From IMG/VR virus record IMGVR_UViG_3300042563_002067, positions 62,001 through 126,000 of that record: a stretch of 64,000 nucleotides of DNA. One strand, given 5' to 3'. The notes under the pieces were generated by a model. The model searched no databases. It was not told the origin of the DNA and saw only the letters and a program-made list of their open reading frames with translations. Both the position numbers and the translations under genes were made by a program. Every line of letters starts with the position of its first letter. Position 1 is the first letter of the stretch. Below, in pieces: positions 2,363-46,194 of the stretch. Source of the stretch: a virus.

Positions 2363-2983
2363 ATGAAAAAATTAATAACAATTATAGAAGAGGTTGGTAG
2401 TGTTGATAAATCATCATACCCAAAAATAAAATTTGAAGGAACCACAGCATCTGATAAAATAAATTTATCGTTATTATCAGATATTAATTCAGCTGCCAAC
2501 GCGGCGGATATTACTGTTTCTATCGGTACGGCTGTTACAGGACATAAAGAAGTAACTAGTTCCGGTAATGTTAGTAGACACACTACAGGAGAGGCTGTAG
2601 ACATTTCTAGAGTAAATGGTTTGGGTTGGAATAGTAAATCTGATGCAGAATCTAAAAAAATATTAGGGGGTATTGAAAGTTTTGTAACTAATTTAAAAAA
2701 TGCCGGATATACCGTGAATAGCGAATCTGGTAATCCTAAGGCAGTTTTATATTTTGGATTTCCACAACACGATGACCACATTCATATCTCAAATAAAGTA
2801 GGTAGTCCAGCGGCTGAGGTAACCCCGGAAAAACCCGCAGCGCCAACAAGTGCCGAGGAATATGCTACAGACACTTTAATAAATGCTCTTAGTGGAGCCT
2901 TTAAACCATTGTTAGGTTTAAATGAGAGTAAACAAAAACGAATAATTCTCAATATTGAAAAAATTAAGAATTTATTAAAATAA
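2363..2983 (+). CDS. M15-type zinc D,D-carboxypeptidase/endolysin-like protein
   Basis: This 206-residue protein carries the signature of peptidase family M15: SRHTTGEAVDIS (His and Asp zinc ligands, about residues 71-82) and DDHIHIS (third ligand His, about 136-142). Such enzymes cut peptidoglycan peptide stems and many phages use them as endolysins. There is no signal peptide. The N-terminus MKKLITIIEEVGS contains a hydrophobic-x-Glu site (IIE|E) like those in other proteins here thought to be trimmed by the prohead protease, so a virion location is possible. The last 24 residues (LNESKQKRIILNIEKIKNLL) form a basic helix after a Pro/Ala linker. Lysis enzyme or virion-associated lysin are both open. 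Confidence 0.75.
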   Translation: MKKLITIIEEVGSVDKSSYPKIKFEGTTASDKINLSLLSDINSAANAADITVSIGTAVTGHKEVTSSGNVSRHTTGEAVDISRVNGLGWNSKSDAESKKILGGIESFVTNLKNAGYTVNSESGNPKAVLYFGFPQHDDHIHISNKVGSPAAEVTPEKPAAPTSAEEYATDTLINALSGAFKPLLGLNESKQKRIILNIEKIKNLLK

Positions 2984-3010
2984 AAAAACCCCTCCGAAGA
3001 GGGGTTTTTT
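2984..3010. terminator. Bidirectional terminator between convergent genes
   Basis: CCCCTC-CGAA-GAGGGG is flanked by six or more A on the left and T on the right, so it works on both strands. It separates the peptidase gene from the minus-strand lipoprotein gene. Confidence 0.9.
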
Positions 3011-3013
3011 GTT

Positions 3014-3187
3014 TTACTTCACTTGAGTAGTGTCTACTTTGGTAGTGTCTACGGCTGTTGTATCTACTGATACTGAATCAACCGCTGTTGTATCAACTGT
3101 AGTTGTTGATTCCTCTGTGTTTACTTGTTTACAAGATGTTACCGTCAATGTTCCGATAATTGCTAAAGCTAATAATACTTTTTTCAT
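3014..3187 (-). CDS. Small lipoprotein with VDTT repeats, 57 aa
   Basis: The minus strand encodes a 57-residue protein with a clear lipoprotein signal: MKKVLLALAIIG, then TLTVTSC with the lipobox cysteine at residue 19. The mature part is almost only Thr, Val, Asp and Ser, with the unit VDTT(A/K/Q)V given several times. It would sit on a membrane surface, probably the outer membrane or periplasmic face, as a short flexible tail. A phage lipoprotein of this kind may act in superinfection exclusion or lysis control, but that is inference. The gene is below 60 codons and is bounded by the bidirectional terminator. Confidence 0.8.
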   Translation of the reverse strand: MKKVLLALAIIGTLTVTSCKQVNTEESTTTVDTTAVDSVSVDTTAVDTTKVDTTQVK

Positions 3188-3319
3188 AATACTTTTGTTT
3201 TAATTAAATTTAAGTTCGTTAAATAAATAGGTTATTAAAATTGATAAATCAAGTTTCATACCAAAAAAATTTACTTAATCGTTGTAGTAAAATTTTTTTT
3301 GAAAAAAACTGAAATAATG

Positions 3320-3350
3320 TTTGGTAGTCTCGAATTAAGGCTTATCTTTG
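3320..3350 (+). promoter_or_regulatory. Bacteroidota-type promoter TTTG-N19-TATCTTTG
   Basis: TTTG at 3320-3323 and TATCTTTG at 3343-3350 are separated by exactly 19 bases, the known spacing for the primary sigma factor of Bacteroidota. The predicted start is about 18 bases before the ATG at 3374. Confidence 0.85.
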
Positions 3351-3373
3351 TATCGGATTTAAAACTAATCATT

Positions 3374-3628
3374 ATGGCTAAAGAGAAATTGTATAGAAGT
3401 GTTAACGGAGAGTATTTATATTTGTTCAATTGGATAGGTGGTGGATTCAATGACGTGTGGGCACCAAGTAAAAGAGAGGCTTACGCTAAGGTGGTGAGAG
3501 AAAACAAAGAACACGAGAAGAAATATCCAACACACGTTAAGTTGAGACCGGATTATAAGACAATGAGAAAATGCACTTATAGTGAGTATCAAGCACAAAA
3601 CCGAATGGGTTGGATGATGAGTATGTAA
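3374..3628 (+). CDS. Hypothetical basic protein, 84 aa
   Basis: The protein starts MAKEKLYRSVNGEYLYLFNW and is rich in Lys, Tyr and Trp. The ATG at 3374 is chosen because a clear host-type promoter ends 24 bases upstream; an upstream TTG in the same frame lies inside that promoter. It heads a run of small genes with the next start three bases after its stop. The family is not recognised. Expression from the host sigma factor suggests an early or middle gene. Confidence 0.65.
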   Translation: MAKEKLYRSVNGEYLYLFNWIGGGFNDVWAPSKREAYAKVVRENKEHEKKYPTHVKLRPDYKTMRKCTYSEYQAQNRMGWMMSM

Positions 3629-3630
3629 TT

Positions 3631-6032: not shown

Positions 6033-6946
6033 CAAATGAGGAAAACCTCAAGACGTTCTTAGAAATTTTAGATTATCCTTTACCCACTTTGGTGGAGTAA
6101 AAAACGATAATAGGTGGCTTATCATCTTTAAATAATCCCGGAAACGGGGATAAAATGAAATCATTAGTGTTAGTGATTTTGTGGTTTGGGAAACTGAACT
6201 CGAGTAAGCAAGTGGGATATTAGTAGTCCTGTAGTACCGAGGATAACTTCGTAGGGAAATGGAATACTAACTTGGCAATGTGGATTGTCCGGTTGAGGTG
6301 GGAACACCAATAAGAATAACCCATAGGAACCAAGTAAGAAACATATTTCCAAATATGTGATTGCGGGTCCCAAAATTAGAGTTGGGTTAAAACCGAAAGG
6401 TAAGATAAAGAACGAGTGGTGTCGATTTTATCCCTATCAAACATCTACCAAGATGTTGATATGAACTACACTTGAAATTTCGTAATGGGGACATTACACG
6501 GAGGAGGTTAGTATTTTGTTGTCCAAAAGATAACGGAGCTTACGACAGACCCCTTCTTCGACACATCCACAACACGTTAACTATTTTCAATATGGTGAAA
6601 AACTAAACAGAAAAAAGCAAAAGCGTCTGTCAGTCGTAGATGACAAGGTGACTACTTAGTTATGGGCTGTCCATAGCACACAGAGACCGCAAGTTGATGT
6701 GTATTCTTACCAAAAACCTCTAATCCCGCAAGGATTAATCAGTTCGCAAGATTGAGGAGAGTGGAGTAATAAGAGAGTAATTTACGACTCGAGGAGTGAT
6801 TGGTCTAACCAATCGTCACTGAGGATTACATCCCAAAAGGATGTGGATATAAAGGGAACTAATAATCCTTTTAAAGATTCTCAATAATAGGTTTAATCTC
6901 AACCTAATTAGCCAAAAGGTGTTACAGAAATGTGACACCTTTTTTT
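6033..6946 (+). ncRNA. Large structured non-coding RNA, about 0.91 kb
   Basis: Between a dedicated promoter and a strong terminator lie about 900 bases with no credible reading frame on the plus strand but many local hairpins: TGAGG-AAAA-CCTCA, TCCCG-GAAA-CGGGGA (GNRA loop), GATAA/TTATC, ACATC/GATGT, TAATCC-CGCAA-GGATTA, ACATCC-CAAAA-GGATGT and TGATTGG/CCAATCG. Composition is richer in G than neighbouring genes. Size, density of tetraloop hairpins and position beside tRNA genes in a phage resemble the giant ornate RNA classes GOLLD and ROOL, but I cannot confirm membership. It is not rRNA or RNase P RNA by any motif I can see. The smpB gene follows directly. Confidence 0.7.
6917..6946 (+). 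terminator. Terminator of the large RNA
   Basis: AGGTGTTACA-GAAA-TGTGACACCT is a ten-base-pair hairpin with a GNRA loop, followed by seven T. The T-run also supplies the first element of the smpB promoter. Confidence 0.9.
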
Positions 6947-6974
6947 GTTTATATCAATTTTTATATTATCTTTG
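6944..6974 (+). promoter_or_regulatory. Bacteroidota-type promoter of smpB
   Basis: TTTG at 6944-6947 and TATCTTTG at 6967-6974 are 19 bases apart. The ATG at 6979 lies where transcription should start, so the smpB message is predicted to be leaderless. Confidence 0.85.
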
Positions 6975-6978
6975 TCGT

Positions 6979-7416
6979 ATGAAAAAATCAATTAACATCG
7001 TCAATAAGAAAGCCAAATTTGAGTATTCATTCTTAGAAACCCTAATTGTGGGAATCAAACTAGTTGGTTCTGAGGTTAAGTCCATCCGTCAGGGAAAGGT
7101 GTCCATATCTGAAGGGTATTGTTATTTTAATGATGGGGAGTTGTTTATAAAGGGGATGAATATCTCTGATTACGGTTACGGGTCCTTCCACGAGACTGTT
7201 AAGGATAGAAAACTATTACTTAAACGAAAAGAACTTAATAAGTTGGAGCGTGAGTTAATTAACGGGACAACCATCATTCCTTATCGTGTTTTCCTAAATG
7301 ATACCGGATTGGTTAAGATGGAGATTGCTCTTGCCAAAGGGAAGAAACTCCACGATAAACGAGACAGTATTAAATCCCGGGACATTGAGAGAGATATGAA
7401 GAGAGATTTAAAATAA
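6979..7416 (+). CDS. smpB: SmpB, tmRNA-binding protein
   Basis: This 145-residue protein is SmpB, which carries tmRNA into the A site of stalled ribosomes. It opens with INIVNKKAKFEYSFLETLIVGIKLVGSEVKSIRQGKVSISEGY, the conserved beta-barrel core, followed by the FIKGMNISDYGYGSFHETVKDRKLLLKRKEL block and the basic C-terminal tail (KGKKLHDKRDSIKSRDIERDMKRDLK) that reads the mRNA channel. Normal length is about 150-160 residues. The ATG at 6979 is preferred over an upstream alternative because the latter lies inside the RNA terminator. A tmRNA gene lies 0.9 kb downstream on the other strand, so the phage has both partners. Confidence 0.95.
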   Translation: MKKSINIVNKKAKFEYSFLETLIVGIKLVGSEVKSIRQGKVSISEGYCYFNDGELFIKGMNISDYGYGSFHETVKDRKLLLKRKELNKLERELINGTTIIPYRVFLNDTGLVKMEIALAKGKKLHDKRDSIKSRDIERDMKRDLK

Positions 7417-7445: not shown

Positions 7446-7763
7446 ATGAAAAATTTGTTAAAAACCATTTCTCAAGAAGAAAAAAGTAGAATCCTTGAAA
7501 TGCACTCATTTAAAAAAAATACGATTATAGAATCTGATGAAGAACCAAAAACAAAAAGAAAGGTTGCTGAAAAATGGAATGAGATTACCGATACACTATT
7601 TTTCACTAGTTTCATTCGTAGATATTCAAGTGAGAAAAAATTAAAAGAAAAATATGAAGGAAAAGATATGATGGAAGGATTGGAAAAAGAATTTGAAAAA
7701 TTTTTCCCCGGAGAAGATTATCTACACGACTTCTTCAAAGAATTGAGAAGAGTTGATTGGTAA
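7446..7763 (+). CDS. Small protein with shared N-terminal leader (candidate internal head protein)
   Basis: This 105-residue protein begins MKNLLKTISQEEKSRILEMH, nearly identical to the start of the protein at 12525 and similar to those at 11029 and 42442. The leader ends in NTIIE|S, a hydrophobic-x-Glu site like the predicted cleavage site of the capsid protein. The remaining 70 residues are charged and helical (KRKVAEKWNEITDTLFF). I infer a protein packaged into the prohead by its leader and trimmed by the prohead protease. A terminator follows 17 bases after the stop. Confidence 0.6.
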   Translation: MKNLLKTISQEEKSRILEMHSFKKNTIIESDEEPKTKRKVAEKWNEITDTLFFTSFIRRYSSEKKLKEKYEGKDMMEGLEKEFEKFFPGEDYLHDFFKELRRVDW

Positions 7764-7858: not shown

Positions 7859-8218
7859 ATGGTAGATTTAACATCGTTCATTATGGGTATAGGTTTGGTT
7901 CTCGGGGTACTGGGAGTTGGGGTTGTGGTTATGATGTACATTCAAATTAAAAGATTAAAAAATAAATGCGCTCAATTAGAGTTAGTTCAAGGACATATAT
8001 TTGATGAGATGAACAGAAGAGACGAATCTCTTAATCGTCGTATTGATGGTGAGATTGGTAGGACAGATAAAATATATGAAGAAACTAATCGATACGTCAA
8101 TGGAAGAATTGATAATGTATACAAAGACATTGAAGAGGTATACAGAAATATGGATTCAAGATTAGATAAATTAACAAATAAATTAAATCCAACAAAAAAG
8201 GATTTATTACAGGATTAA
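7859..8218 (+). CDS. Membrane-anchored coiled-coil protein, 119 aa
   Basis: The protein has one transmembrane segment at its N-terminus (about residues 7-27, FIMGIGLVLGVLGVGVVVMMY) and then a long heptad-like charged helix (LKNKCAQLELVQGHIFDEMNRRDESLNRRIDGEI). Residues 55-110 repeat a pattern of about 14 residues, RIDxxIxxxxE/Y. The ATG at 7859 is chosen because the in-frame codons before it run into the terminator. A membrane-tethered coiled coil could act in lysis timing, superinfection exclusion or virion structure; the sequence does not decide. Confidence 0.6.
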   Translation: MVDLTSFIMGIGLVLGVLGVGVVVMMYIQIKRLKNKCAQLELVQGHIFDEMNRRDESLNRRIDGEIGRTDKIYEETNRYVNGRIDNVYKDIEEVYRNMDSRLDKLTNKLNPTKKDLLQD

Positions 8219-8242
8219 AAAATAAACATTTGAACTGATAAT

Positions 8243-8270
8243 AAAAAAACCCATCGTATGATGGGTTTTT
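8243..8270. terminator. Bidirectional terminator between coiled-coil gene and tmRNA
   Basis: ACCCATC-GTAT-GATGGGT is flanked by A-run and T-run. On the minus strand it lies five bases past the tmRNA CCA end. Confidence 0.9.
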
Positions 8271-8274
8271 CTTT

Positions 8275-8671
8275 TGGTGGAAGTGCGGAGACTCGAACTC
8301 CGGTGTTACTTGTATTACCTATTAAGGACTACACGTTTAGGATATTGTTTAAGCTAACAATCCAAAATTTCACAATTCCCTTATTTTTAGAGTGGTTCGG
8401 TTTACTGAGAACTAATCCTCCACTTGTACCTTTTCGGATAGGTACCACACCTTTTTAAGGACTCCTGTTGCTGGGTTATATGTCCACCGACCCCAATGTG
8501 TGTTTGCTTACGCTACGTTCACAAGCTCATCTTGACGTACAAGACCTACTAGAGCCATTTTGTTTAAAACGTTTCCGTCTAAATTGTTGTACCCATAGAT
8601 TTAAGTGATAGAGAACATCTCACTACGTGCCCCGAATAACTATTACGAATAGTCAATTCCGTGTCACTCCC
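8275..8671 (-). ncRNA. ssrA: tmRNA (ssrA) with an extended, non-standard tag
   Basis: The minus strand encodes a complete one-piece tmRNA of about 397 bases. The 5' end GGGAGTG (8671-8665) pairs with CACTTCC at the 3' end, followed by A and an encoded CCA (8277-8275). The pair at position 3 is G-U, the alanine identity element. GGAATTGAC follows as in the conserved GGnTTCGAC block, and the T arm is CGGAG-TTCGAGT-CTCCG. The tag frame starts after UAGAC with GGA (like UAGUC-GCA in E. coli): GNVLNKMALV, then 12 more residues ending in LVNVA and a TAA stop, 22 residues in all. Known Bacteroidota tags are short and end in ALAA, so this tag is longer and ends differently. Partner SmpB is encoded nearby. 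Confidence 0.92.
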
Positions 8672-8685
8672 ATATTTTGATACCA

Positions 8686-8716
8686 CAAAGATAATACATT
8701 TTTGGATAAATCCAAA
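8686..8716 (-). promoter_or_regulatory. Bacteroidota-type promoter of tmRNA
   Basis: On the minus strand TTTG (8716-8713), 19 bases, then TATCTTTG (8693-8686). The start would be about ten bases before the mature tmRNA 5' end, as expected for a precursor cut by RNase P. Confidence 0.85.
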
Positions 8717-8748
8717 TAAAATTATATTTATTATTAAAATAAATATCA

Positions 8749-11028: not shown

Positions 11029-11841
11029 ATGAAAAAACTATATTTCTTAAATGAAGAAGAAAAAAATAGAATTTTAAATCTTCACGAAAGTGCCACAAAA
11101 CGACAATATTTAAGTGAGCAAATTCCATTTGGACCTCAAATACCACCAAACCCATATAAGACAGCCCTTGATAATATGAAAGGTAATGCGAATTGGGAAG
11201 GAAAATATTCTTGTGTTCCTAGCCAAGGGGTTAAACCAACCAAATTAAAAGATGGGTCAACTATGTATATTATTAATGGTGTAAAATACTATAGTAATGG
11301 TAGAAAAAAAATGGCTGACGGTAAAATGTTAAATTATGCTTGTGAGACGGAATTTATTAAAGAAGGTGAACGACAAACAAATATTACAAAAGTTTATTGT
11401 AGTGTTAAAAATGGGATGATAACAACCGGAAGTCTTAAAAATTCACCATGGAACGACTATGTTAAATCTTTTAAAATAACTAGTCAAGAAATAGAAACGG
11501 CTAAAAAATCTTGTCCTAAAACTAATAAAACTAAACAAAGTTCTGGTAATAGACAACAAATTATTTCTCAAACAGAAAATAACACAAAGGCAATTCAGAA
11601 ATTATTAAAGTTACCTGAAACGGGGATTATGGATACAACATTATTACAAAAAATTAATGAAGTGTTAAATGGTGGGGGACAACAAGCTCAACCAAGACCT
11701 CAAGTTGAACCAATCCAACAACTGACTCCGGCAGGTGTTAAAACACAACAATTAACAACTATGTCTCCGGAACAATTAACCGCAGGGTTGCAACAAATGC
11801 AACAAAAAGCTGCCGCTGCAACCGCAGGATTAAAACGATAA
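11029..11841 (+). CDS. Leader-bearing protein with peptidoglycan-binding-like C-terminus
   Basis: This 270-residue protein starts MKKLYFLNEEEKNRILNLHE and continues SATKRQYLSE|Q, almost the same leader as the protein at 42442. The leader ends in a hydrophobic-x-Glu site (LSE|Q). After a Pro-rich stretch there is a central domain with four cysteines (YSCVPS, YACETE, VYCSV, KSCPK). Near residue 185 TKAIQKLLKLPETGIMDTTLLQKINEVL matches the helical PG_binding_1 repeat. The C-terminus is Gln/Pro/Ala-rich. I infer an internal head or virion protein with cell-wall affinity. It is the first of three consecutive leader-bearing genes. Confidence 0.65.
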   Translation: MKKLYFLNEEEKNRILNLHESATKRQYLSEQIPFGPQIPPNPYKTALDNMKGNANWEGKYSCVPSQGVKPTKLKDGSTMYIINGVKYYSNGRKKMADGKMLNYACETEFIKEGERQTNITKVYCSVKNGMITTGSLKNSPWNDYVKSFKITSQEIETAKKSCPKTNKTKQSSGNRQQIISQTENNTKAIQKLLKLPETGIMDTTLLQKINEVLNGGGQQAQPRPQVEPIQQLTPAGVKTQQLTTMSPEQLTAGLQQMQQKAAAATAGLKR

Positions 11842-11850: not shown

Positions 11851-12498
11851 ATGAAAAAAGTTATATTAGAAGAAATTGAAAATATGAAATACCTTTTGGG
11901 GTATAAAAGAGGTGTTGTTATTTCTGAACAAGAAGAAAAAAATGATTTGATTGATAAATACTCAACTAAATCAATATCAAATTCTATCGATTCAGGTGAT
12001 TACTCAAATCTTGACCCAAGAGTTGCTGATGCAATTAAACAATCTCAGAATATGGTTGGTGGACAATCTATTTTACCTAACTCAACTTCAGGAACTACGT
12101 CAGGAACTACGTCAGGAACTACTTCAGGAACTACGTCAGGAGCAACAACTCCGGCACCATCAACCCCTGCAACACCAATAAAAATCGGTGTAAAATATCC
12201 ATCAATAATGGAATTACAAAATTCATTAAATACTAAATTTCAATCAGGATTAACTCCGGATGGTATGTATGGACCTAAAACCTCATCAAGTATTTTAGCA
12301 GCATTAACAAAAACATCAACAACAACCACCGCAAATACGACACCGGTAAATACTGTTGTTGGTGGTGACGCATCATCTGAAGCGATTAAAAAAACCGCTG
12401 AGGCAAATGCTTCAATATCTAAAGGTGTTGTTGCTAATGCACCAAAACCGGCAGCAAATTCTAATTTTGCTGAAGTAGACGGTGGTGATTTTACATAA
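11851..12498 (+). CDS. Leader-bearing protein with PG_binding_1 domain
   Basis: This 215-residue protein starts MKKVILEEIENMKYLLGYKR and its leader ends in VVISE|Q, the same cleavage-like site as its neighbours although the leader sequence differs. Residues about 113-155 (SIMELQNSLNTKFQSG, LTPDGMYGPKTSSSIL) are a good match to the peptidoglycan-binding PG_binding_1 fold. Between leader and domain lies a SGTT repeat linker. The C-terminal 60 residues are Thr/Ala-rich and flexible. There is no export signal, so access to peptidoglycan would be through the virion. It follows the previous gene by nine bases. Confidence 0.65.
   Translation: MKKVILEEIENMKYLLGYKRGVVISEQEEKNDLIDKYSTKSISNSIDSGDYSNLDPRVADAIKQSQNMVGGQSILPNSTSGTTSGTTSGTTSGTTSGATTPAPSTPATPIKIGVKYPSIMELQNSLNTKFQSGLTPDGMYGPKTSSSILAALTKTSTTTTANTTPVNTVVGGDASSEAIKKTAEANASISKGVVANAPKPAANSNFAEVDGGDFT
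12088..12147 (+). repeat. 12-base tandem repeat coding SGTT
   Basis: The unit TCAGGAACTACG occurs four times in a row from 12088 to 12135 (one base change in the last), followed by a partial unit. It encodes a flexible (SGTT)4 linker. Slippage here would change the linker length by four residues without breaking the frame. Confidence 0.9.
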
Positions 12499-12524: not shown

Positions 12525-12962
12525 ATGAAAAATTTATTCAACAGTATTTCTCAAGAAGAAAAAAATAGAATACTTGAGATGCACTCAGGTAAAAAAAATG
12601 TAATATCTGAACAATCTGAACACGGAAAAGGGGCGATTATTCCTGAACCTAAAAAAAATAAAGTTGCAACACCACAGATGTTAGATAAAGTTTTAAAAAA
12701 ACTTAATTATGATATTGAAACAGGGGGTTCTAAATTAAAATTTATGAAAAATATACCTGAAAAAAAATTAACTTTATTTGTTACTTTTACTCCGGAATAT
12801 GCGATTGTTAATAAGAAAAAAGATAAAGAACCAACTCAAACAGGAACTGATGGTAAAATTCACGGAATGGGATTAGCGATTCCAGCTGAAAAGTTTCCTT
12901 TATTGTTGAAACCTAATACTCTAAAAGAATTTGAAAAATTTCTTATGAGTTGTGAAAAATAA
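12525..12962 (+). CDS. Leader-bearing small protein, 145 aa
   Basis: The protein starts MKNLFNSISQEEKNRILEMH, closely matching the leader at 7446, and the leader ends NVISE|Q. The remaining 110 residues are basic (KKNKVATPQMLDKVLKKLNYDIE; LTLFVTFTPEYAIVNKKKDKE) and look like a small alpha/beta domain that I do not recognise. Its place behind two other leader-bearing genes, before a bidirectional terminator, suggests one late operon of head-delivered proteins. Confidence 0.6.
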   Translation: MKNLFNSISQEEKNRILEMHSGKKNVISEQSEHGKGAIIPEPKKNKVATPQMLDKVLKKLNYDIETGGSKLKFMKNIPEKKLTLFVTFTPEYAIVNKKKDKEPTQTGTDGKIHGMGLAIPAEKFPLLLKPNTLKEFEKFLMSCEK

Positions 12963-12968: not shown

Positions 12969-12996
12969 AAAGAGGACTATTTGTCCTCTTTTTTCT
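12969..12996. terminator. Bidirectional terminator
   Basis: AAGAGGAC-TATTT-GTCCTCTT is flanked by A-run and T-run between convergent genes; it overlaps the last codons of the Clp gene on the minus strand. Confidence 0.9.
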
Positions 12997-17915: not shown

Positions 17916-18325
17916 TGAGTTATTTAATATATGTTAATGAATTAGGTCCTAATTATAAAGGTGATAACATATATGAATTTATTTTCTCGGATAGTTCAGA
18001 AGACGTTTGGGGTGAATCTTGGGAATCAAAACCGTCTAACGGTTACCCACTCCCACCGGACATAGAACACATAAAAACAGTAGGAGTTTTGAAGAATGAC
18101 CAAATCACAATGTCAGTAATTCAAAACTCTGACTATTTTTCGATGATAGATTCAATGGATGATATAATCGCATTATGTTGGGAAAACGAAAGTGAAGACG
18201 TTGATTTCACACGTCAAAGAAGATTGGTGTTTAAGTTTGGAGAAACAGAACAATCAGTCAAAGATAAATTATACGAAAGAGATATCGTATTAGAGTTTGA
18301 AAAAAAAATCGAATATGAACACTAA
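17915..18325 (+). CDS. Hypothetical protein, 136 aa
   Basis: The start overlaps the previous stop as TAATG. The protein (MSYLIYVNELGPNYKGDNIYEF) is acidic and beta-rich with several Trp, and its central RLVFKFGETEQSVKDKLYE is like a small structural domain. The family is not recognised; it probably belongs to the late operon leading to the terminase. Confidence 0.6.
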   Translation: MSYLIYVNELGPNYKGDNIYEFIFSDSSEDVWGESWESKPSNGYPLPPDIEHIKTVGVLKNDQITMSVIQNSDYFSMIDSMDDIIALCWENESEDVDFTRQRRLVFKFGETEQSVKDKLYERDIVLEFEKKIEYEH

Positions 18326-19255: not shown

Positions 19256-20644
19256 ATGAGCGTAAATTTAAAAATGGAAAAAATATTGAAAGCCAAAAGT
19301 GACTTAGATAAAAAATTAGTTAATGAAGGGTTAACCAATAATCAAACAACTATGTTGAACGAAATTAATCGTCGTTTAAATGAGGCTCCTGTTAGTTATG
19401 ATGGTCCTGAAAGAATGGAACCGGGTATTGAAAGACAAATTAATCAAAGAGAAACCCCATATAAAGAACATCCAGCATTACCACAAGATGGTGATAGAGA
19501 TTTCATTGAAATGATTACCTCTCAACGATTTAAAGACTCTGTAGACAAAGTAAGAAGATTTTTAGGTGATACTACACCAATTCAGGGAAATAATCCAATG
19601 ATGGGACTAATGAGTTCTGTAATGGGTAGTTTACAACAAATTAAAAGAGTTGAAGTTCAAAACAAAGAATATCTTGAAAACTTGGCAGTTGATTTAGTTA
19701 AAAAAGAATTAGGTATTCCTGAAGGTCAATTACAGTTTGAGGTTGAATTAGTTAATGGACCAATGGGAGCGTCTGAAGGAATGCAAACACAACCGGAACA
19801 ACCGGACGAAGAAGATGTCGAAGAAGCATTCAAAGAAAGCGAAGAACACCAAGAAGAAATAGAAGACTTTATGGATTCTATGGAAAAATTCAATTTAGAG
19901 AAAGCAAAAAGAAGAATGATTAATTCATTAGTTCAAGGAGCGGCATTTAAAGGTGGACATATGTATACATTAGTTAGTGACGAGATAAATAGATTAAGTC
20001 CAAACTTACTAAACCTATATGGTGTTACACAATCATTGATGGAACACTTATATTGGTTATATCCGGATATGGAAAATATGGCCGGTGGTGGAGGTGGTCA
20101 AATGGGACAATCAGAATCTGACCCTGAAACTGACCCACCAACAATTAAAGCGAAAGCATTTACATTCCCTTTATTAGTTCACGAAATAGTTAAAGGTATT
20201 TATTCATTATATGGTGACCAAGGATTACCAAACGACCCTGTTCAAAGAAGTATGGTTGTCGGTGCTGAGGATACATTACCAGCAGAAATATGGGATTCAA
20301 GATTAGGTCCAATATTTTGGGAAAAATTCAGAGATTCTTGGCCTGATAAATTATATGAAGACGACCAAAGACACCTTCAACAATACTTATTTATGAAATT
20401 GTCTCAATTAGAGGCGAAAGATTTTATTGTATTAGCGAAAGCCATTATGGCTGATAAACCTGAAGCAAAAGAGGTAATAAATAGAATGGTTGCAGAAATC
20501 GTTGAAATCCTTAAAAACCACGAGTATGAATCAAAAATGTCTGATGACGAAGATGATGAAGACGATAGTGAAAATTATGGTGATTACGGATTTGATGACT
20601 TAGATGACTTAGATGATATTGATTTATCTTCGTTAGGATTCTAA
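19256..20644 (+). CDS. Late protein directly upstream of terminase, 462 aa
   Basis: The protein starts MSVNLKMEKILKAKSDLDKK; LNE|A at residue 43 fits the prohead-protease pattern. The body is helical with Met- and Gln-rich stretches, a Gly-rich turn (AGGGGGQ) near residue 280 and a conserved-looking block FTFPLLVHEIVKGIYSLYGD. The last 35 residues are almost entirely Asp/Glu. It ends 21 bases before the terminase. By position it could be a head-completion or neck protein, but I see no homologous motif and leave it unnamed. Confidence 0.55.
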   Translation: MSVNLKMEKILKAKSDLDKKLVNEGLTNNQTTMLNEINRRLNEAPVSYDGPERMEPGIERQINQRETPYKEHPALPQDGDRDFIEMITSQRFKDSVDKVRRFLGDTTPIQGNNPMMGLMSSVMGSLQQIKRVEVQNKEYLENLAVDLVKKELGIPEGQLQFEVELVNGPMGASEGMQTQPEQPDEEDVEEAFKESEEHQEEIEDFMDSMEKFNLEKAKRRMINSLVQGAAFKGGHMYTLVSDEINRLSPNLLNLYGVTQSLMEHLYWLYPDMENMAGGGGGQMGQSESDPETDPPTIKAKAFTFPLLVHEIVKGIYSLYGDQGLPNDPVQRSMVVGAEDTLPAEIWDSRLGPIFWEKFRDSWPDKLYEDDQRHLQQYLFMKLSQLEAKDFIVLAKAIMADKPEAKEVINRMVAEIVEILKNHEYESKMSDDEDDEDDSENYGDYGFDDLDDLDDIDLSSLGF

Positions 20645-30490: not shown

Positions 30491-30510
30491 TTTATACGAA
30501 CTAACAATAT

Positions 30511-37102: not shown

Positions 37103-37828
37103 ATGAATTTAAGAATATTACAACCAAGTGAATCAGGGAAAGGTATATTAGTTGAATACGATGCTGGGTATATTAACCCAAATGATAATCGTAACGAAAC
37201 ATTAATTAGAGAATCTAGCGAAACTCTTGACCACACTAAACCAATTGAGTTTTATGCCGTATTACAAAAATATGATACCCCTAATAGAAATGGTAGATTA
37301 TATCCTGAACGTATATTAAAAAGAGAGGCGGAGAATTATAAAAAAATGATTAAAAAGGGAACAGCCCTATCCGAGTTAAATCACCCGGAATCATCTTTAA
37401 TCGATTTAGATAGAGTTTCTCACGCAATCACCGAAGTATGGTGGGAAGGTAATGTCCTAATGGGTAAAATAAAACTACTTACATCACCGGGATATCACGA
37501 AAGTGGTATTTGTTCAACCAAAGGTGACTTAGCAGCTAACTACCTAAGACAAGGAGTTACATTAGGTATCTCATCAAGAGGTGTAGGTTCCCTTAAAAAG
37601 ATTGGTGAACAAAATGAAGTTCAAGACGATTTTGAATTAATCTGTTTTGATTTAGTATCATCACCATCAACCCCGGGAGCGTATCTATTCTTAAATAAAG
37701 AGGATAAACAACTATACGATGAGAACTTAGAAGAAGAGAAAAAAATGAGTGTTGAGAGACACGTTGGTGATTCCGGAAATAAATCGCTTGACTTAATGAA
37801 AAAATTAAACGATTATTTGGGTTACTAA
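37103..37828 (+). CDS. Prohead maturation protease, T4 gp21-like
   Basis: This 241-residue serine protease belongs to the gp21/herpes-assemblin type. The catalytic His is in ALSELNHPES (about residue 97) and the catalytic Ser in TLGISSRGVGSL (about residue 160); YDTPNRNGRLYPERIL and DRVSHAITEVWWEGN are family blocks. In T4 this enzyme sits in the prohead core and cuts scaffold, capsid and internal proteins after (I/L)-x-Glu. T4 gp21 has 212 residues. It lies between core and scaffold genes as in T4. Many proteins in this window carry candidate cleavage sites for it. Confidence 0.92.
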   Translation: MNLRILQPSESGKGILVEYDAGYINPNDNRNETLIRESSETLDHTKPIEFYAVLQKYDTPNRNGRLYPERILKREAENYKKMIKKGTALSELNHPESSLIDLDRVSHAITEVWWEGNVLMGKIKLLTSPGYHESGICSTKGDLAANYLRQGVTLGISSRGVGSLKKIGEQNEVQDDFELICFDLVSSPSTPGAYLFLNKEDKQLYDENLEEEKKMSVERHVGDSGNKSLDLMKKLNDYLGY

Positions 37829-38219: not shown

Positions 38220-39731
38220 ATGGCAAAAGAAAAATCTTTAGTTGAAGAGGCTATCATCCAAATGAAAAACTTGGAAGAAGCGGTAGCTGAAAATGCAAAA
38301 GGAATACTTGCTTCTACAATGAAACAAGAAATCAAAGACCTAGTAAAAGAATCTCTAACTGAACAAGACGAGATTAACCCTGATGACGTTGAAGTGGATG
38401 AACCTATGGGTTCTGATGATATTGCCGATATTGATATGGGTGATGATTCAGATGAAGAAGGTGATGAAATGGATACTGATGATACTGATGACGAAGAAGA
38501 TATGGACTTTGGTGACGAAGAAGATATGGACGACGAGGAAGACACTATTGACTTAACTGACGCAGACGATGAAGAAGTACTTAGAGTATTTCAACTTATG
38601 GGTCCGGATGACAACATTGTCGTAACAAAAGACGACAAAGGAAACACTCACCTTAAAGATGAGGAAACCGGTAAAGAGTATATGATTGTTGGTGAAAGTG
38701 AAGAAGAAGAATTTGAAATGTCTGAAGAATGGGACGAAGAACTTGAAGAAGATGAGATGGGTGACGAATCTATTGAATCAATCGTTGAGAGAATGTTCGG
38801 TTCTGATGATGAAGACGAAGACGAAGTGGAATTTGATTTTGAAGAGTTTGACGAATCTGATGATATGGACGATGAAGAAATCGTTTATGAAATCGAAATG
38901 GATGAAGAAGACGAAGAAGAATTAGGTGAAGAAGAAATGGATGATGAATCTATTACTGAAGCTAAAATGTCTATCAAACCAAAAGGTGTTGGGATGGGTA
39001 ATCAATCAAAATTTAAATTTAACAAATCACCTAATCAAGGAACAGGATTTAAAACTAAAATGAAAGAGGCTCCAAAATCTGTAGGAACAGGTAAAGCGAA
39101 ATTCGAGTATAAAGAAGGTGAAAATTCAGGAACTAAATTAGGAACAAACAAAGTTGTTAAGAAAACTGAAACAAAAGAAGGTTCAACTAGAAAACCAATG
39201 GTTAAAAAAGTTGAAGGTAAAAAAGAAGAGACAAAAGAGGCTGTAAGAACTTTAGGTTCAGGGTCTAACTTTAGAAAAGGTGGTTTACCAAAACCAAGAG
39301 CTCATTCAAGTTTTAATACTGCTATCAAAGAAAGTAACACTAATTCAGAGTTACAAGTTCTTAGAGAAAAAAACGAAGAATACAGAAAAGCACTTAATGT
39401 TTTCAGAAGTAAATTAAACGAGGTTGCAATCTTCAATTCAAACTTGGCTTACGCTACACGTTTGTTCACTGAACATTCAACATCAAAACAAGAAAAAATT
39501 AACATTTTAAGAAGATTTGATGGTGTTGAAACTATCAAAGAATCTAAAAATCTATATCAGGTCGTTAAAAATGAATTATCCTCAGGAACTAAAACTCAAA
39601 CTATGAACGAGTCAATTGAAAGAACAATCGCAAAATCACCTTCTACAGGAGCGGTTAACTTACTTGAATCAAAAACATATGAGAATCCACAGTTCTTAAG
39701 AATGAAAGATTTAATGGCAAAAATAAAATAA
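38220..39731 (+). CDS. Prohead scaffold/core protein in gp22 position, 503 aa
   Basis: An extremely acidic protein: after a helical start (MAKEKSLVEEAIIQMKNLEEA), residues about 50-240 are mostly Asp/Glu with Met. A basic Lys/Gly/Thr segment follows (about 250-370), then a helical C-terminal domain (LQVLREKNEEYRKALNVFRSKLNEVAIFNSNLAYATRLF) that resembles the C-terminal helix bundle of T4-type scaffolds. Its position between protease and capsid gene is that of T4 gene 22. T4 gp22 has 269 residues, so this version is much longer. Several hydrophobic-x-Glu sites would allow degradation by the protease. Confidence 0.8.
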   Translation: MAKEKSLVEEAIIQMKNLEEAVAENAKGILASTMKQEIKDLVKESLTEQDEINPDDVEVDEPMGSDDIADIDMGDDSDEEGDEMDTDDTDDEEDMDFGDEEDMDDEEDTIDLTDADDEEVLRVFQLMGPDDNIVVTKDDKGNTHLKDEETGKEYMIVGESEEEEFEMSEEWDEELEEDEMGDESIESIVERMFGSDDEDEDEVEFDFEEFDESDDMDDEEIVYEIEMDEEDEEELGEEEMDDESITEAKMSIKPKGVGMGNQSKFKFNKSPNQGTGFKTKMKEAPKSVGTGKAKFEYKEGENSGTKLGTNKVVKKTETKEGSTRKPMVKKVEGKKEETKEAVRTLGSGSNFRKGGLPKPRAHSSFNTAIKESNTNSELQVLREKNEEYRKALNVFRSKLNEVAIFNSNLAYATRLFTEHSTSKQEKINILRRFDGVETIKESKNLYQVVKNELSSGTKTQTMNESIERTIAKSPSTGAVNLLESKTYENPQFLRMKDLMAKIK

Positions 39732-39763: not shown

Positions 39764-41635
39764 ATGGGAGCATTATTAGAATCAGGATTAGTTGGTAACA
39801 TCGGGTTAAAACACCTTAAAGTTATCAAAGAAGACACAATCAACAAATGGGATAAATTAGGATTCCTAGAAGGTCTTAAAGGACACATGAGAGAAAACGT
39901 AGCTCAGTTATATGAGAACCAAGCGTCTTTCTTAATAAACGAAGCTACAGGTGAAGGTTCAAACGGTTCATTCGAAACGGTTGTATTCCCTATCGTAAGA
40001 AGAGTATTCTCTAAATTACTTGCGAATGAAATCGTATCAGTACAAGCTATGAACTTACCAATCGGTAAATTGTTCTTCTTCGTACCTAAAATTCAAGGTT
40101 ACCAATCAGGTCAAGAAACTATCTTAGGAACTCAATTAGGTGGTGGTACTCACTACGGACCAATTGGTGCGGCTGATGGACAAACTGCGGCTGATGGTCA
40201 ATCAGGAGCTGGTTACACAGGAGCAAACGCATTCAAGAAAAATCTTTATGATTTATTCTATGAAGGAAACGAAGGTCAATTAGACCCTCCAGGATTGTTT
40301 GACTACTCTAAAGGACAATGGTCGGCAGTTACTAAACCAACAACAGTTATGGTTTGGTCAAATGGTAGTTTAGTTGTTGCTGACGCAACTGCATTAGCTA
40401 ACCAATTCAATGGAAAAAACATTAGAAAAGTAATCGTAGCATTATCAGGATTCACAACTGCTGGTACAGGTAAATTAATCGGACCAGACGGTAATGAAGT
40501 TGATACTGAAACTTTCTTATCTGATTTAAGAATCTACAGTGATTCTACAACTGCATGGACTTCAACAACATCACCTTGTAGTGTTGTAAGTGGGTCTACC
40601 GGAATAAACTCATTATTGTTTAGAGTTGTTACTCAACAATATGGTGAAGGTATCGTTTCAGGATTAAACGGAAGAGGAACTACATCATTTGCAACTACAG
40701 GTAATAACGGTACTTACAATGATACTTGTTCTCCTGCAGGAATCATCTACTTAGAAGTTGATTTATCTTGTCCAACTTGTCCTTCTTGTGGTGACACATT
40801 AGACGGTTATACAGGAACAACTATCGGAGTATTACCATCAACTGGGTTTACTGCTGTTTACAGACGTTACGCTGATATGGAATTTGAAGATAAAATCGGT
40901 GAGGTTTCTTTCGAATTAGATTCAGTTACTGTATCTGTTACAGAAAGAAAATTAAGAGCACAATGGTCTCCTGAGTTAGCTCAAGACGTTGCAGCTTTCC
41001 ACAACATCGATGCTGAGGCTGAATTAACAGCTTTATTATCTGAACAAGTTGCGGCTGAAATCGACCGTGAAATCTTAAGAGATTTACGTAAAGGTGCGGC
41101 ATGGAACTTACGTTGGGATTACAATGGTTGGAGAAGAATCTCTTCAACAACAAACTATACACAAAAAGATTGGAACCAAACTTTGATTACTGCAATTAAC
41201 CAATTGTCAGCACAAATCCACAAATCTACTTTAAGAGGTGGAGCTAACTGGATTGTAGTATCTTCTGAGGTTTCAGCGATTATGGATGACTTAGAATACT
41301 TCCACGTATCTAATGCTTCACCTGAACAAGACCAATATAATATGGGTATTGAAAGAGTTGGAACATTAGCAGGACGTTACCAAGTATATCGTGACCCTTA
41401 CTTCCCAGCTAACCAAGTGTTAATTGGACACAAAGGAACATCGTTACTTGATACAGGATACATCTACGCTCCGTATGTACCATTACAATTAACACCTACA
41501 ATGTACAACCCATTCAACTTTACACCGATTAAAGGTATAATGACTCGTTACGCGAAAAAGATGGTGAATAATAGATTTTACGGCAGAATTACTGTAGATG
41601 GTGTTAGAACATTCGATTTAAGAGAATTGAGATAA
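39764..41635 (+). CDS. Major capsid protein, T4 gp23-like
   Basis: This 623-residue protein is the gp23-type HK97-fold shell protein. The N-terminal 60 residues are a delta domain ending in SFLINE|ATGEG, a prohead-protease site; then comes FETVVFPIVRRVFSKLLANEIVSVQAMNLPIGKLFFFVPK, the N-arm and start of the fold. ADMEFEDKIGEVSFELDSVTVSVTERKLRAQWSPELAQD and LTALLSEQVAAEIDREILRDL are strong gp23 blocks. Residues about 130-350 hold an inserted domain with a CPTCPSCG cluster, not typical of T4. Length exceeds T4 gp23 (521). The gene is followed by a terminator. Confidence 0.95.
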   Translation: MGALLESGLVGNIGLKHLKVIKEDTINKWDKLGFLEGLKGHMRENVAQLYENQASFLINEATGEGSNGSFETVVFPIVRRVFSKLLANEIVSVQAMNLPIGKLFFFVPKIQGYQSGQETILGTQLGGGTHYGPIGAADGQTAADGQSGAGYTGANAFKKNLYDLFYEGNEGQLDPPGLFDYSKGQWSAVTKPTTVMVWSNGSLVVADATALANQFNGKNIRKVIVALSGFTTAGTGKLIGPDGNEVDTETFLSDLRIYSDSTTAWTSTTSPCSVVSGSTGINSLLFRVVTQQYGEGIVSGLNGRGTTSFATTGNNGTYNDTCSPAGIIYLEVDLSCPTCPSCGDTLDGYTGTTIGVLPSTGFTAVYRRYADMEFEDKIGEVSFELDSVTVSVTERKLRAQWSPELAQDVAAFHNIDAEAELTALLSEQVAAEIDREILRDLRKGAAWNLRWDYNGWRRISSTTNYTQKDWNQTLITAINQLSAQIHKSTLRGGANWIVVSSEVSAIMDDLEYFHVSNASPEQDQYNMGIERVGTLAGRYQVYRDPYFPANQVLIGHKGTSLLDTGYIYAPYVPLQLTPTMYNPFNFTPIKGIMTRYAKKMVNNRFYGRITVDGVRTFDLRELR

Positions 41636-42441: not shown

Positions 42442-43584
42442 ATGAACAATTTATTTGAGATATCGAGTGAGGAAAGAAGTAGAATATTAAATCTTCACGA
42501 GAGTGCAACAAAACGACAATATTTAACGTTAGAACAGGTTGTTCAACCCCAATATCATTCGACAACTACATCAAAATCGACTAACACTACTTTTCCGGTT
42601 CAAAATGTTGGTGATAAATTTGCTTATGGTCAGGTTGATTCTCCAAATGTTAAGTCAAAAATAATTTCATTAAAACCTCAAATTGATAAATTTATCAAGG
42701 ATGATGGTGGTAAAAATTTTGTTATAACTATTACTGCAGGGGAATCTAATGTTACGAATCCAAAAGGATTTGAAGAAAAGGGTAGTTTAGCATTGGCGAG
42801 AGCTAATTCTGTGAAAGGGTATTTTGAAGAAGTATTTCAAGATTTAATTAAAAATGGTGTTTTAACTATTAAAGTTCCTACAGATGTTAGTCAAGTATCT
42901 TTAGGTAAAACACCATATGATAAGACTAAAGGTGATAATAAAAATCCTGATAAGATTAAATTATATAGTGGTGAGCAATTTGTAAACTTTACTATCACAG
43001 GTAGTGGTTCAAAGTGTAATTTTGTTTTAGATGTTGAAGCTGGTCAAGGGGACCCTAATTTAGATTATGTAACAACTGATGAGATTTTAGAAGGTAAAGG
43101 GGAAGTTACATTTACTCCGGGACAGATTCCGGATAGATTGGTTATTATGGATAGTCAGGGTAAAATAGAAACGGACACAGGGTATATTACGGGTGACGTT
43201 AGTAAATACCCGGATTGGAAATATACTCCACTATATGTTTATCTTTTAACTTTGGTAAGTCAAACTAACCCGGTTGCGGTTTCAGGTAGTGAAATATTAA
43301 CGATAACAGTTACAGATTATGCTGATTTGGTTAAACAATTATTGAATGACCCCAATTCACGTAGTTATCAAAAAATGGGTAGTGAGATAGAACCGGGGTT
43401 AAAAGCTATGGCGGGTATGATTAAAAAAGGGCGAACAGAGTTTGTTATTTATAAATTATCGAATGCGGGAACCACAGTTCAATTTGATTCACCAAATAAT
43501 GATAAAAAAATCAAAGTATATTCACCTATTGGAACCGGAACAATTAAAACAGGTTACGGGTTAGTAGGTCGTTGTATTAATTAA
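42442..43584 (+). CDS. Leader-bearing protein with OmpA-like domain, 380 aa
   Basis: The N-terminus MNNLFEISSEERSRILNLHE and SATKRQYLTLE|Q repeats the leader seen at 11029 with few changes. Residues about 60-130 (SLKPQIDKFIKDDGGKNFVI, then EEKGSLALARANSVKGYFEEV) resemble an OmpA C-terminal peptidoglycan-binding domain, in which a run of RAxxVxxYL follows a strand. The C-terminal 200 residues are beta-rich. I infer a virion protein with cell-wall affinity, packed in the head by its leader. The gene converges with the small secreted protein gene on the other strand and overlaps it by eight bases. Confidence 0.6.
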   Translation: MNNLFEISSEERSRILNLHESATKRQYLTLEQVVQPQYHSTTTSKSTNTTFPVQNVGDKFAYGQVDSPNVKSKIISLKPQIDKFIKDDGGKNFVITITAGESNVTNPKGFEEKGSLALARANSVKGYFEEVFQDLIKNGVLTIKVPTDVSQVSLGKTPYDKTKGDNKNPDKIKLYSGEQFVNFTITGSGSKCNFVLDVEAGQGDPNLDYVTTDEILEGKGEVTFTPGQIPDRLVIMDSQGKIETDTGYITGDVSKYPDWKYTPLYVYLLTLVSQTNPVAVSGSEILTITVTDYADLVKQLLNDPNSRSYQKMGSEIEPGLKAMAGMIKKGRTEFVIYKLSNAGTTVQFDSPNNDKKIKVYSPIGTGTIKTGYGLVGRCIN

Positions 43585-44147: not shown

Positions 44148-44152
44148 AGTAT

Positions 44153-45382
44153 ATGAACAAAAATAACAAAATACAGATTAAAGAGGCTACCGGAGAGAGT
44201 GGAACTAGAGGTTCGTTTATAGCACCTCTTCAAGTGGGTATTAGAAAATTCAAAAAATCTCAAATGGGTCCGTTTACGACATCGGTATCTAAGTATGATA
44301 ATCCTGAATTGGAATTTGATAGTTATGATGGTTCGATGGATGAAACAAAGAAACAGATTAAGAAGATAGAGGGGAAGGCAAGAAAGGTAACTAATTATAT
44401 GACGAAACACCCTGATTCGACCAATAGTGATGAAGAGGGTAACAACATTAATCAAACACCCGGTAAGAAAAATTTAAAAGTTGTTCCAATTAAAGAAAAT
44501 ACGTTGGCTAGTAATGCCGGTGAATACAATGGTCCAATTGAGTTAGGATTAAAAAAATGGAGAAAGACTGAATTATTTCCTTTTAGTATTGATGTTGATA
44601 ATCACCATAATAAAAAAGCTAAAGGTAAACATATAAAAAATAATGTTGAACGTGTTATTGGTATGTGGGAGAAAGGTGTTGACGGAAGTTATGATATAGA
44701 CACACACGACGTTCATACGGTTAAAGAATGGGTTGAGATAACCGAAGGCACCATATTGGGAGATATTGTCCCAAATGGACTAAAAATGTCCTCTAATTAC
44801 GACAGAGTTATTGATAAGTTTAGAAAGGATATTCCTGAGGATAAAATGAAGGAATATGATTTGATTTCTGAGAAGATAAAAGATTTTGTTCAAGATAGGG
44901 GATATGTTATAAAAGTATTGAATTCTTGTAACACCGGATTTAAAGGGGTTAGAACAAATAAGGCAATTATTTTATGTTCACCTGAAATGTTTCCAAATTT
45001 TGCATCATTTGTTTATATTTTATTCCACGAATTAAGGCACGAACAACAGATGAGTGAATTTGATTTGAAGGATTCCTATATGGGGGATATTGAGGATTTT
45101 GAGGAATTTTATAAAATCTATTGGGATATGGAAATGGATGCCGATAATTACGGTAAGGATTGGGTTAAAAAAATTGGTGATGTGTTAAAATTGCCTGAGG
45201 ATGTTTATTATCTAGATAATATGATTAAAAATTATCCATCAATGTCAAATATGGTTAGACAAATGACATCACACCTACACAGAGAAATACAAACCTTAAA
45301 GAGTCGAGGAATGACGTATACGGACATTAGTGACTTGGATATCGTTAAGAAACACTTACAGAGTCTTGAAGATATGTTTTAA
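44153..45382 (+). CDS. HExxH metallopeptidase with duplicated N-terminal unit, 409 aa
   Basis: The C-terminal half has FHELRHEQQM (about residue 300), a zinc HExxH motif with a following Glu/Asp-rich helix, and looks like a small gluzincin/minigluzincin domain. The N-terminal 150 residues contain two diverged copies of one unit: IKEATGESGTRGSFIAPLQV with GIRKFKKSQMGPFTTSV, and IKENTLASNAGEYNGPIELG with LKKWRKTELFPFSIDV. Each copy opens with IKE, a possible prohead-protease site; the first, IKE|ATGE, has the same downstream residues as the capsid site. An injected or head-internal peptidase is plausible. The ATG at 44153 is preferred; an upstream in-frame codon lies in the opposite gene. Confidence 0.7.
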   Translation: MNKNNKIQIKEATGESGTRGSFIAPLQVGIRKFKKSQMGPFTTSVSKYDNPELEFDSYDGSMDETKKQIKKIEGKARKVTNYMTKHPDSTNSDEEGNNINQTPGKKNLKVVPIKENTLASNAGEYNGPIELGLKKWRKTELFPFSIDVDNHHNKKAKGKHIKNNVERVIGMWEKGVDGSYDIDTHDVHTVKEWVEITEGTILGDIVPNGLKMSSNYDRVIDKFRKDIPEDKMKEYDLISEKIKDFVQDRGYVIKVLNSCNTGFKGVRTNKAIILCSPEMFPNFASFVYILFHELRHEQQMSEFDLKDSYMGDIEDFEEFYKIYWDMEMDADNYGKDWVKKIGDVLKLPEDVYYLDNMIKNYPSMSNMVRQMTSHLHREIQTLKSRGMTYTDISDLDIVKKHLQSLEDMF

Positions 45383-45387
45383 ATAAC

Positions 45388-45415
45388 AAACCCCTACTCA
45401 ACAGTGGGGGTTTTT
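45388..45415. terminator. Bidirectional terminator
   Basis: AAACCCCTACT-CAAC-AGTGGGGGTTT pairs over 11 bases (one G-T) between convergent genes; the minus-strand gene ends inside it. Confidence 0.9.
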
Positions 45416-45837
45416 GATTTAATTAAGATTCTATTCTTTAATTTTGATAATGAATGTTCCACTTGGGATTTCATTTGTTCAATACGTTGCATTCTATTTT
45501 GTTGCACTTTGTTATCATACATATTGGACATTTTCTTCCAATCTCTATCAGTAAGGGGGATATTACTATAATAACAAACGTGATTGATTATTGTAATTTT
45601 TTTATCGTCTAAGATAATGAATACACCTAATTTTTTATTTTCTATAATTCTATGGTCAGATAGTGGAGCAATTTCATAAATGGAATTGGAATGTCGTAAG
45701 ACATTACGGAAAATAAATTTACAATCATTGATATCCGCCAATCTTCCCGGGTCAACAACATCGTATAATATCTGTAACTCTAATAGTTTCTTTCTAACAG
45801 CTCTACGTTTTAATTTTCGTTTTATGTATTTTATCAT
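45394..45837 (-). CDS. Hypothetical basic protein, 147 aa
   Basis: The protein starts MIKYIKRKLKRRAVRKKLLELQ, a strongly basic amphipathic helix, and continues with a beta-rich part (KLGVFIILDDKKITIINHVCYYSNIPL) and a helical tail. A TATCTTTG element about 25 bases upstream on the minus strand suggests a host-type promoter. No family is recognised; the basic start could bind membrane or nucleic acid. Confidence 0.65.
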   Translation of the reverse strand: MIKYIKRKLKRRAVRKKLLELQILYDVVDPGRLADINDCKFIFRNVLRHSNSIYEIAPLSDHRIIENKKLGVFIILDDKKITIINHVCYYSNIPLTDRDWKKMSNMYDNKVQQNRMQRIEQMKSQVEHSLSKLKNRILIKSKTPTVE

Positions 45838-45915
45838 ATCTTTAGTGAATTATCGGACAAAGATACGTAAAAATTTTATATATAAAAAAATAATTTGATA
45901 AAAAAAAGGAGAAAA

Positions 45916-46194
45916 TTAAATTCCTCCTTTATTTTTTGCTTTATCTAAGTAGTCATAAGCTCTATCTCCATACATTTCATATATTTTTTTGAAGAATTGT
46001 GCGGGGTTTTTTCTTATGTATCTAAGAACATCATTTGGGATATACGAACCGTATTTGTCACCAAAGATTGATTTGACTTGTCTCTCTCTATCACTCGTTG
46101 GTCTATTAACATCGGATGAGTAATCTTGTTCAGACATTACTTTTTTAATAATGTTTGATAAATCTGATTCTGAAAGTTTAACTACCTTACCCAT
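45916..46194 (-). CDS. Leader-bearing small protein, 92 aa
   Basis: MGKVVKLSESDLSNIIKKVMSE|Q is a short leader ending in MSE|Q, the same cleavage-like ending as in the proteins at 11029, 11851 and 12525, although the helical part differs. The remaining 70 residues (RERQVKSIFGDKYGSYIPND, then RKNPAQFFKKIYEMYGDRAY) are basic and helical. It is probably a small internal head protein. Confidence 0.6.
   Translation of the reverse strand: MGKVVKLSESDLSNIIKKVMSEQDYSSDVNRPTSDRERQVKSIFGDKYGSYIPNDVLRYIRKNPAQFFKKIYEMYGDRAYDYLDKAKNKGGI

Follow-up and report, generated by a model that had tools for sequence, protein, structure and literature searches.

Leader proteins and head genes of the window

The stretch of viral DNA analysed here, referred to as the window, is 64,000 nucleotides long and corresponds to positions 62001-126000 of a 159,912-base virus record in IMG/VR (IMGVR_UViG_3300042563_002067). 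Several of its proteins have unrelated bodies and share N-terminal leaders, which are probably capsid-targeting propeptides ending in a hydrophobic residue, any residue and glutamate (phi-x-E). Genes are named by their lowest coordinate, and a slash marks the predicted cut. The leaders fall into class A (7446, 11029, 12525 and 42442), class B (45916) and class C (11851); three further proteins with a possible leader or junction are listed after them, with scores from profile hidden Markov models (HMM).

7446..7763 (+), leader-A protein, 105 residues; leader 7446-7532 (MKNLLKTISQEEKSRILEMHSFKKNTIIE/S); HMM 33.7 bits, E 1.3e-8
11029..11841 (+), leader-A protein, 270 residues; leader 11029-11118 (...ILNLHESATKRQYLSE/Q); HMM 77.1 bits, E 3e-22
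11851..12498 (+), leader-C protein, 215 residues; leader 11851-11928 (MKKVILEEIENMKYLLGYKRGVVISE/Q); HMM 69.5 bits
12525..12962 (+), leader-A protein, 145 residues; leader 12525-12611 (MKNLFNSISQEEKNRILEMHSGKKNVISE/Q); HMM 45.4 bits
42442..43584 (+), leader-A protein with OmpA-like body, 380 residues; leader 42442-42534 (...ILNLHESATKRQYLTLE/Q); HMM 67.6 bits
45916..46194 (-), leader-B protein, 92 residues; leader 46129-46194 (MGKVVKLSESDLSNIIKKVMSE/Q); HMM 48.1 bits, E 6e-13
44153..45382 (+), conserved protein with an HExxH (FHELRHE) motif; short leader 44153-44185 (MNKNNKIQIKE/A)
19256..20644 (+), conserved structural-region protein; RRLNE/A junction after residue 43
2363..2983 (+), tentative peptidase-M15-like protein; possible 9-residue leader (MKKLITIIE/E); Pfam M15_3 E 0.042 only

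The six leader proteins match their profiles with E values of 1e-8 to 1e-22, although the six sequences themselves belong to the modelled families. As the original prediction described, 7446 and 12525, whose bodies are unrelated, share MKNLxxxISQEEKxRILEMHS, and EE(K/R)xRILNLHESATKRQYL is common to 11029 and 42442. The phi-x-E ends claimed for eight proteins were found in six of them (VISE/Q in 11851 and 12525, VMSE/Q in 45916, YLSE/Q in 11029, IIE/S in 7446 and IKE/A in 44153); in 42442 the end reads TLE/Q, and 2363, with IIE/E, has no shared leader and is tentative. A leader very similar to that of 11851 precedes dozens of other bodies. The proposed search of the whole genome returned further members outside the window, given here in whole-genome coordinates:

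8175-8942 (-), A-like leader protein
18010-18888 (+), class C leader protein
34460-34726 (+), class B leader protein

The window also encodes a T4-like head module, and the 42442 gene is the next but one to the capsid gene.

33698, portal protein; PHROG portal E 5e-68
37103..37828 (+), gp21-like prohead protease of family S77; Pfam PF03420 E 4.9e-24, T4 gp21 structure 5jbl E 2e-15
38220..39731 (+), acidic protein in the scaffold (gp22) position; assigned by position and composition, with no family match
39764..41635 (+), gp23-like major capsid protein; Pfam Gp23 E 1.3e-74

The gp21-like protease that had been expected is well supported, since it scores 85 bits against the S77 family model (cut-off 27) and its catalytic His and Ser motifs, LNHP and SSRG, align with T4 gp21. 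It is the predicted cutter of the leaders.

Leader classes and payload diversity

Loci were gathered from IMG/VR by two scans for patterns and one for the capsid protein, after which profile models were applied. A total of 158 distinct N-termini were found for leader A (consensus MKNLFxIxEEEKNRILNLHESATKxxYLxE/Q), 185 for leader B (MKKxIKLTESDLxRIVKRVIxE/Q) and 29 for leader C (MKKxIIxEEINxMKYLLGYKRGVVISE/Q). The bodies behind them form about 148 groups after strict clustering (A 60, B 81, C 15). Some groups bear leaders of two or more classes, the count is somewhat raised by fragments, and one group is a false positive. This group consists of HNH-endonuclease starts (the 41731 family, cluster 10) that were caught by the leader models and removed. 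An additional leader-C scan found dozens more bodies. Single long records carry up to 15 B leaders and up to 7 A leaders. Between proteins of different clusters, identity after the junction is only 6-8%, while that of the leaders is 54% for B, 31% for C and 17% for A, the last being an ungapped value across a variable linker.

The leader A pattern was found in 106 viral stretches and had no match among 84,980 bacterial and archaeal genomes. A tblastn search of leader A against cultured phages also gave no match, which is not taken as absence because the 31-residue query is insensitive. In 29 of 32 loci, a leader gene was observed within 6 kilobases on the downstream side of the capsid gene, compared with 0 of 28 on the upstream side. 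S77 was detected in 20 of the 24 long leader-bearing records.

We noticed a possible fifth leader class, MKIIITESQYxxLxE, of about 15 residues, which occurs before many different bodies in many IMG/VR loci. Two possible genes of this class are:

G000 19907-20365 (+), possible fifth-class leader gene
G000 32478-33104 (-), possible fifth-class leader gene

Shared N-termini could also have arisen when gene starts were recently recombined or duplicated, the peptide itself having no function. At identical residues within this genome, the codons agree in 13 of 17 and 14 of 17 cases, and class C leaders have a codon identity of 0.68 at shared residues across payload groups where 0.51 is expected from codon usage, both of which fit such copying. 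The corresponding values for B (0.55 against 0.52 expected) and A (0.62 against 0.55) are close to expectation, and synonymous codons in the A and B leaders are near saturation. The A and B peptides are therefore kept by selection rather than being freshly copied DNA; they are old and have been maintained, and some copying of more recent date has occurred within the genome and in class C. As a general account of the leaders, recent copying is thus extremely improbable.

The phi-x-E junction

The boundary between leader and payload was found to coincide with the predicted cut. With one representative taken per payload group, the B leader holds 2-3 bits per column through most of its length and falls to 0.2-0.4 bits from the second residue past the Glu. 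This drop occurs at the same place when the sequences are aligned on the initiator methionine, where the Glu is not used. In addition, phi-x-E-Q occurs within 25 residues past the leader core in 94 of 161 class A, 78 of 128 class B and 24 of 27 class C sequences, against 0 of 155, 0 of 125 and 0 of 26 respectively in windows 40 residues further on. The linker from helix to site in class A ranges from LHLNE/Q to LHESATKRQYLSE/Q and the site is retained throughout. Position P3 is L, I, V or M in 57 of 59 A, 80 of 80 B and 15 of 15 C representatives, TLE/Q of 42442 being an exception. The P3 and P1 frequencies in classes A to D are partly built in because sites were picked by the phi-x-E pattern; the enrichment counts, which cover A-C, and the methionine-aligned profile are independent of that choice.

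The same kind of junction is observed in core head proteins. The capsid propeptide (39764-39943) ends in FLINE/A, and its residue E60 falls in the alignment column of T4 gp23 E65, the established T4 cut site, in agreement with chain lengths of 521 and 456. The INE/A assigned to the capsid processing site thus aligns exactly with the T4 cleavage site. Among 120 capsid homologues in which this region was matched, 119 have LINE/A and one has LINE/S. The scaffold-position protein has an SLTE/Q junction after residue 48 (38220-38363), and SLxE, followed by Q in most cases, is found in 85 of its 128 homologues, the remainder being mainly fragments.

Relatives of 19256 swap the N-terminal segment and mostly keep phi-x-E followed by A or Q (MGNLTNRQIDNIIKRVLKE/APIDYEGPERM compared with ...RRLNE/APVSYDGPERM). 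Likewise, relatives of 44153 keep phi-x-E/A(T) while the upstream residues differ (MNINQILRKILKE/ATSDS and MDLNQIIKKVLSE/A compared with MNKNNKIQIKE/ATGES). In both families the leader is exchanged at a fixed join, as predicted for a processed propeptide.

These junctions also bear on whether the leaders might bring proteins to the prohead where most then stay unprocessed. In T4, Asp at position 10 blocks processing and still allows targeting (PMC9026906), and P3 deviates in some of the present leaders, including that of 42442. A hydrophobic P3 and a Glu at P1 are nevertheless kept despite the variable linker length, and Gln is strongly favoured at P1' in classes A-C, as expected of a protease site; targeting without cutting is therefore quite improbable.

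Blind comparison of N-termini and phage immuto

In a blind test, all N-termini of a genome were compared and pairs with unrelated remainders were kept, signal peptides being excluded. This genome (171 genes) gave 14 N-terminal-only pairs against 1 internal-only pair, although some proteins in the 14 pairs are not convincing leader proteins. T4 gave ipII/ipIII, the known capsid-targeting pair, together with one borderline pair, and no pairs were obtained from three Bacteroidota phages that lack S77 (crAss001, phi14:2 and phi38:1). The frequency of phi-x-E is near chance in this genome and judging leaders by that motif alone was rejected; the shared leaders exceed chance, as shown by the profile matches, the N-terminal-only pairs and the recurrence before about 148 payload clusters.

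Twelve pairs were found in Flavobacterium phage vB_FspM_immuto (MW353175; host Flavobacterium sp. LMO8), which encodes an S77 protease and a gp23-like capsid protein with VSE/A. Four of its proteins begin with MENFDLKKFLVENKLTxNSxxLxE (class D) and two with MKKQILSEQFKRMQxLAGIITE, and three have MKKSQLRxIIKE-like starts. Leader genes of immuto lie at 1803-2318, 103806-104354, 117631-118632 and 118632-118931 (class D) and at 25061-25456 and 111675-112139, with predicted cuts following the Glu of LKE, INE or ITE. Neither leader A nor leader B was detected in immuto. A class D scan gave at least 114 distinct leaders before at least 65 payload clusters, from at least 120 stretches, and among the matches listed 113 of 114 leaders have a phi-x-E site. 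As immuto has its own leader set, the same arrangement is found in a second lineage, where the leader sequences are different.

A docking peptide for a target other than the prohead (tail, membrane or host factor) would also be shared among proteins, and the Glu junction would then be just a domain boundary. Several payloads bind peptidoglycan (PG) or are OmpA-like, which would fit a role in the tail or in lysis, and packaging of the leader proteins is itself predicted. Against this, the capsid and scaffold-position proteins use the same junction, and the blind test detects the T4 capsid-targeting sequence through the same signal, which the S77-less phages lack. The leaders, judged from sequence, are charged helices; no hydrophobic core, lipobox or signal-peptidase site was seen in them by eye, no dedicated predictor having been run. 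We consider a docking role unlikely.

Payload functions

The 42442 body matched the OmpA domain 3td3 (Foldseek E 3.8e-5, probability 1.00), and Pfam OmpA was matched by 9 of 25 of its homologues. In its structure model (predicted local distance difference test, pLDDT, of 80), a leader helix at residues 9-31 ends at the predicted cut and is followed by a low-confidence linker. The 11851 body is PG-binding or endolysin-like (endolysin PHROGs E 1e-4), whereas a C-terminal PG-binding-like stretch of 11029 reached only E 0.048 with PG_binding_1. The match of 44153 to DUF6782 (E 0.031) is weak single-sequence evidence, and its predicted structure was left uninterpreted because of low confidence (pLDDT 51). 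No useful match came from profile searches of PDB with families A5-A7.

Among 115 payload representatives, PG_binding_1 (8), OmpA (3), VanY and LysM domains were present. These envelope-related domains are real. Action on the envelope as a general rule, as put forward in the original prediction, was not supported, since most representatives match nothing and such a role is limited to a minority. An annotated OmpA-domain protein, a cargo type that also occurs behind leader A, was observed in the crAss-like Cellulophaga phage phi14:2 (L382 283-1278).

Capsid relatives and hosts

Viruses of the leader-bearing group are T4-like, and their hosts probably belong to the phylum Bacteroidota. Among cultured phages, the nearest capsid relatives include one from Microcystis (42.5%) and immuto (39.5%). 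Binned genomes with capsid relatives include Bacteroidales and Paludibacteraceae, as well as a single-cell assembly of Prochlorococcus (60%) and a bin of Acidobacteria (84% over a fragment) (L570 and L573), where the latter two reflect either wider hosts or misassigned phage contigs. In contigs with capsid relatives from rumen Bacteroidales and other metagenome-assembled genomes, only weak B-like N-termini were seen.

Other features of the genome

A ClpA/ClpB-like double AAA+ ATPase (12977-15022, -; AAA_2 E 1.6e-70) adjoins the 11029-11851-12525 leader genes on the opposite strand. An SmpB protein is encoded at 6919-7416 (+; Pfam E 5e-48). An ARAGORN search of the window and the remainder of the record found no transfer-messenger RNA (tmRNA) gene, and SmpB may therefore act with the host tmRNA or otherwise. 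Large proteins at 25648-33633 (+) and at 137776 and 151901 (whole-genome coordinates) have a similar N-terminus, I..NYDGQxADITFxPCSGG, and related bodies, and are probably tail or adhesin paralogues. The genome has 24 tRNA genes clustered in 11 kilobases (L009 5770-16979, about 44770-55979 in the whole genome), and one further tRNA-Pro is located at window position 5554.

Interpretation

The leaders are best explained as capsid-targeting propeptides removed by the prohead protease, forming a diversified version of the T4 internal-protein system. We place the probability of this reading, in which packaging and cleavage are inferred, at roughly 85%. Head targeting and removal by a gp21-like protease, as first suggested for this window, is the account favoured by the boundary at the cut, the capsid and scaffold junctions, the presence of S77 and the blind test.

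Several observations weigh against it. The P3 residue of the 42442 junction is Thr, which is not hydrophobic, and the assignment of 2363 is marginal as it lacks a shared leader and its homologues have phi-x-E at similar places with no leader in common. In this genome [ILVM]xE was found in 96 of 179 N-termini and in 81 of 179 internal windows. Class A carries a second possible site, LHE/S, and S77 was not detected in 4 of the 24 long records, possibly fragments. Lysis is another stage at which the PG-binding and OmpA-like cargo could act. Furthermore, inspection revealed no resemblance of the leaders to the MKTYQEF start of the T4 sequence (MKTYQEFIAE); we therefore propose that they work like a capsid-targeting sequence and do not claim homology.

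Under the propeptide reading, the N-terminal amphipathic helix of the leader would bind a component of the prohead core, and the payload would thus be taken in during prohead formation. The S77 protease would then cut after the phi-x-E inside the head and release a mature payload whose new N-terminus is usually Gln, and this payload would be ejected with the DNA into the next cell. The several leader classes (A, B and C here, D in the immuto group) would serve one assembly line, in which the leaders stay fixed and the cargo genes behind them come and go or are exchanged. Of the cargoes, some may bind or cut the cell wall and envelope, and the others probably include anti-defence or takeover factors, by analogy with T4 internal proteins.

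Comparison with known systems

The T4 capsid-targeting sequence (CTS) of internal proteins was reportedly described by Mullaney and Black in 1996. The present leaders resemble it in being short N-terminal peptides on unrelated bodies that end in L/I-x-E, in occurring in S77-bearing phages and in giving the same blind-test signal. The T4 system has one 10-residue sequence on about three proteins. Here the leaders form several classes that are unrelated to one another and measure about 15-32 residues; a single record contains up to about 20 A/B leader matches, the payload families number about 148 for A-C and at least 65 for D, and Gln is favoured after the cut in A-C. The CTS is present on IPI, IPII and IPIII and is cut by gp21; IPIII needs no more than its first 10 residues to be packaged, and within them targeting depends on residues 4 and 7 and processing on residues 8 and 10 (PMC9026906). 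The concept of a CTS carrying varied cargo is already known for T4-like phages (PMC9026906).

In phiKZ and SPN3US, many head-internal proteins are processed after Glu by a distant gp21 homologue, and SPN3US has two short propeptides of 20 and 24 residues, according to the available portions of PMC10052503 and PMC7411985. Its other N-terminal propeptides are 111-254 residues long, and those portions describe no short leader common to many unrelated cargoes. Immuto is the nearest cultured Bacteroidota T4-like relative found and shares S77, the VSE/A capsid junction and multi-copy phi-x-E leaders, whereas its leader sequences are unlike A and B. Consistent with the initial view that no such family had been described in Bacteroidota phages, literature searches found none, subscription papers and preprints being largely not covered. 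The literature searched contained no account of multiple unrelated leader classes, of hundreds of cargo families or of a cultured system in which to test them.

Bacteroidota T4-like phages may have a general loading platform in which several independent tag classes carry hundreds of fast-exchanging cargo families to the next host, a proposal to which we give even odds; the tag classes are perhaps bound by different prohead-core partners. T4 cargo includes anti-defence proteins, with IPI acting against GmrSD and IPIII being required to infect strain ECOR17 (PMC9391042), and early-acting phage proteins could therefore be sought among the listed leader proteins. As handles, the tags are candidates for directing chosen proteins into phage heads. 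If the propeptide reading is true, very many unannotated proteins of aquatic phages would become predicted head-delivered cargo recognisable from their first 15-32 residues, and the T4 internal-protein idea would extend to many proteins per genome and several independent families of tags, as against about three proteins in T4.

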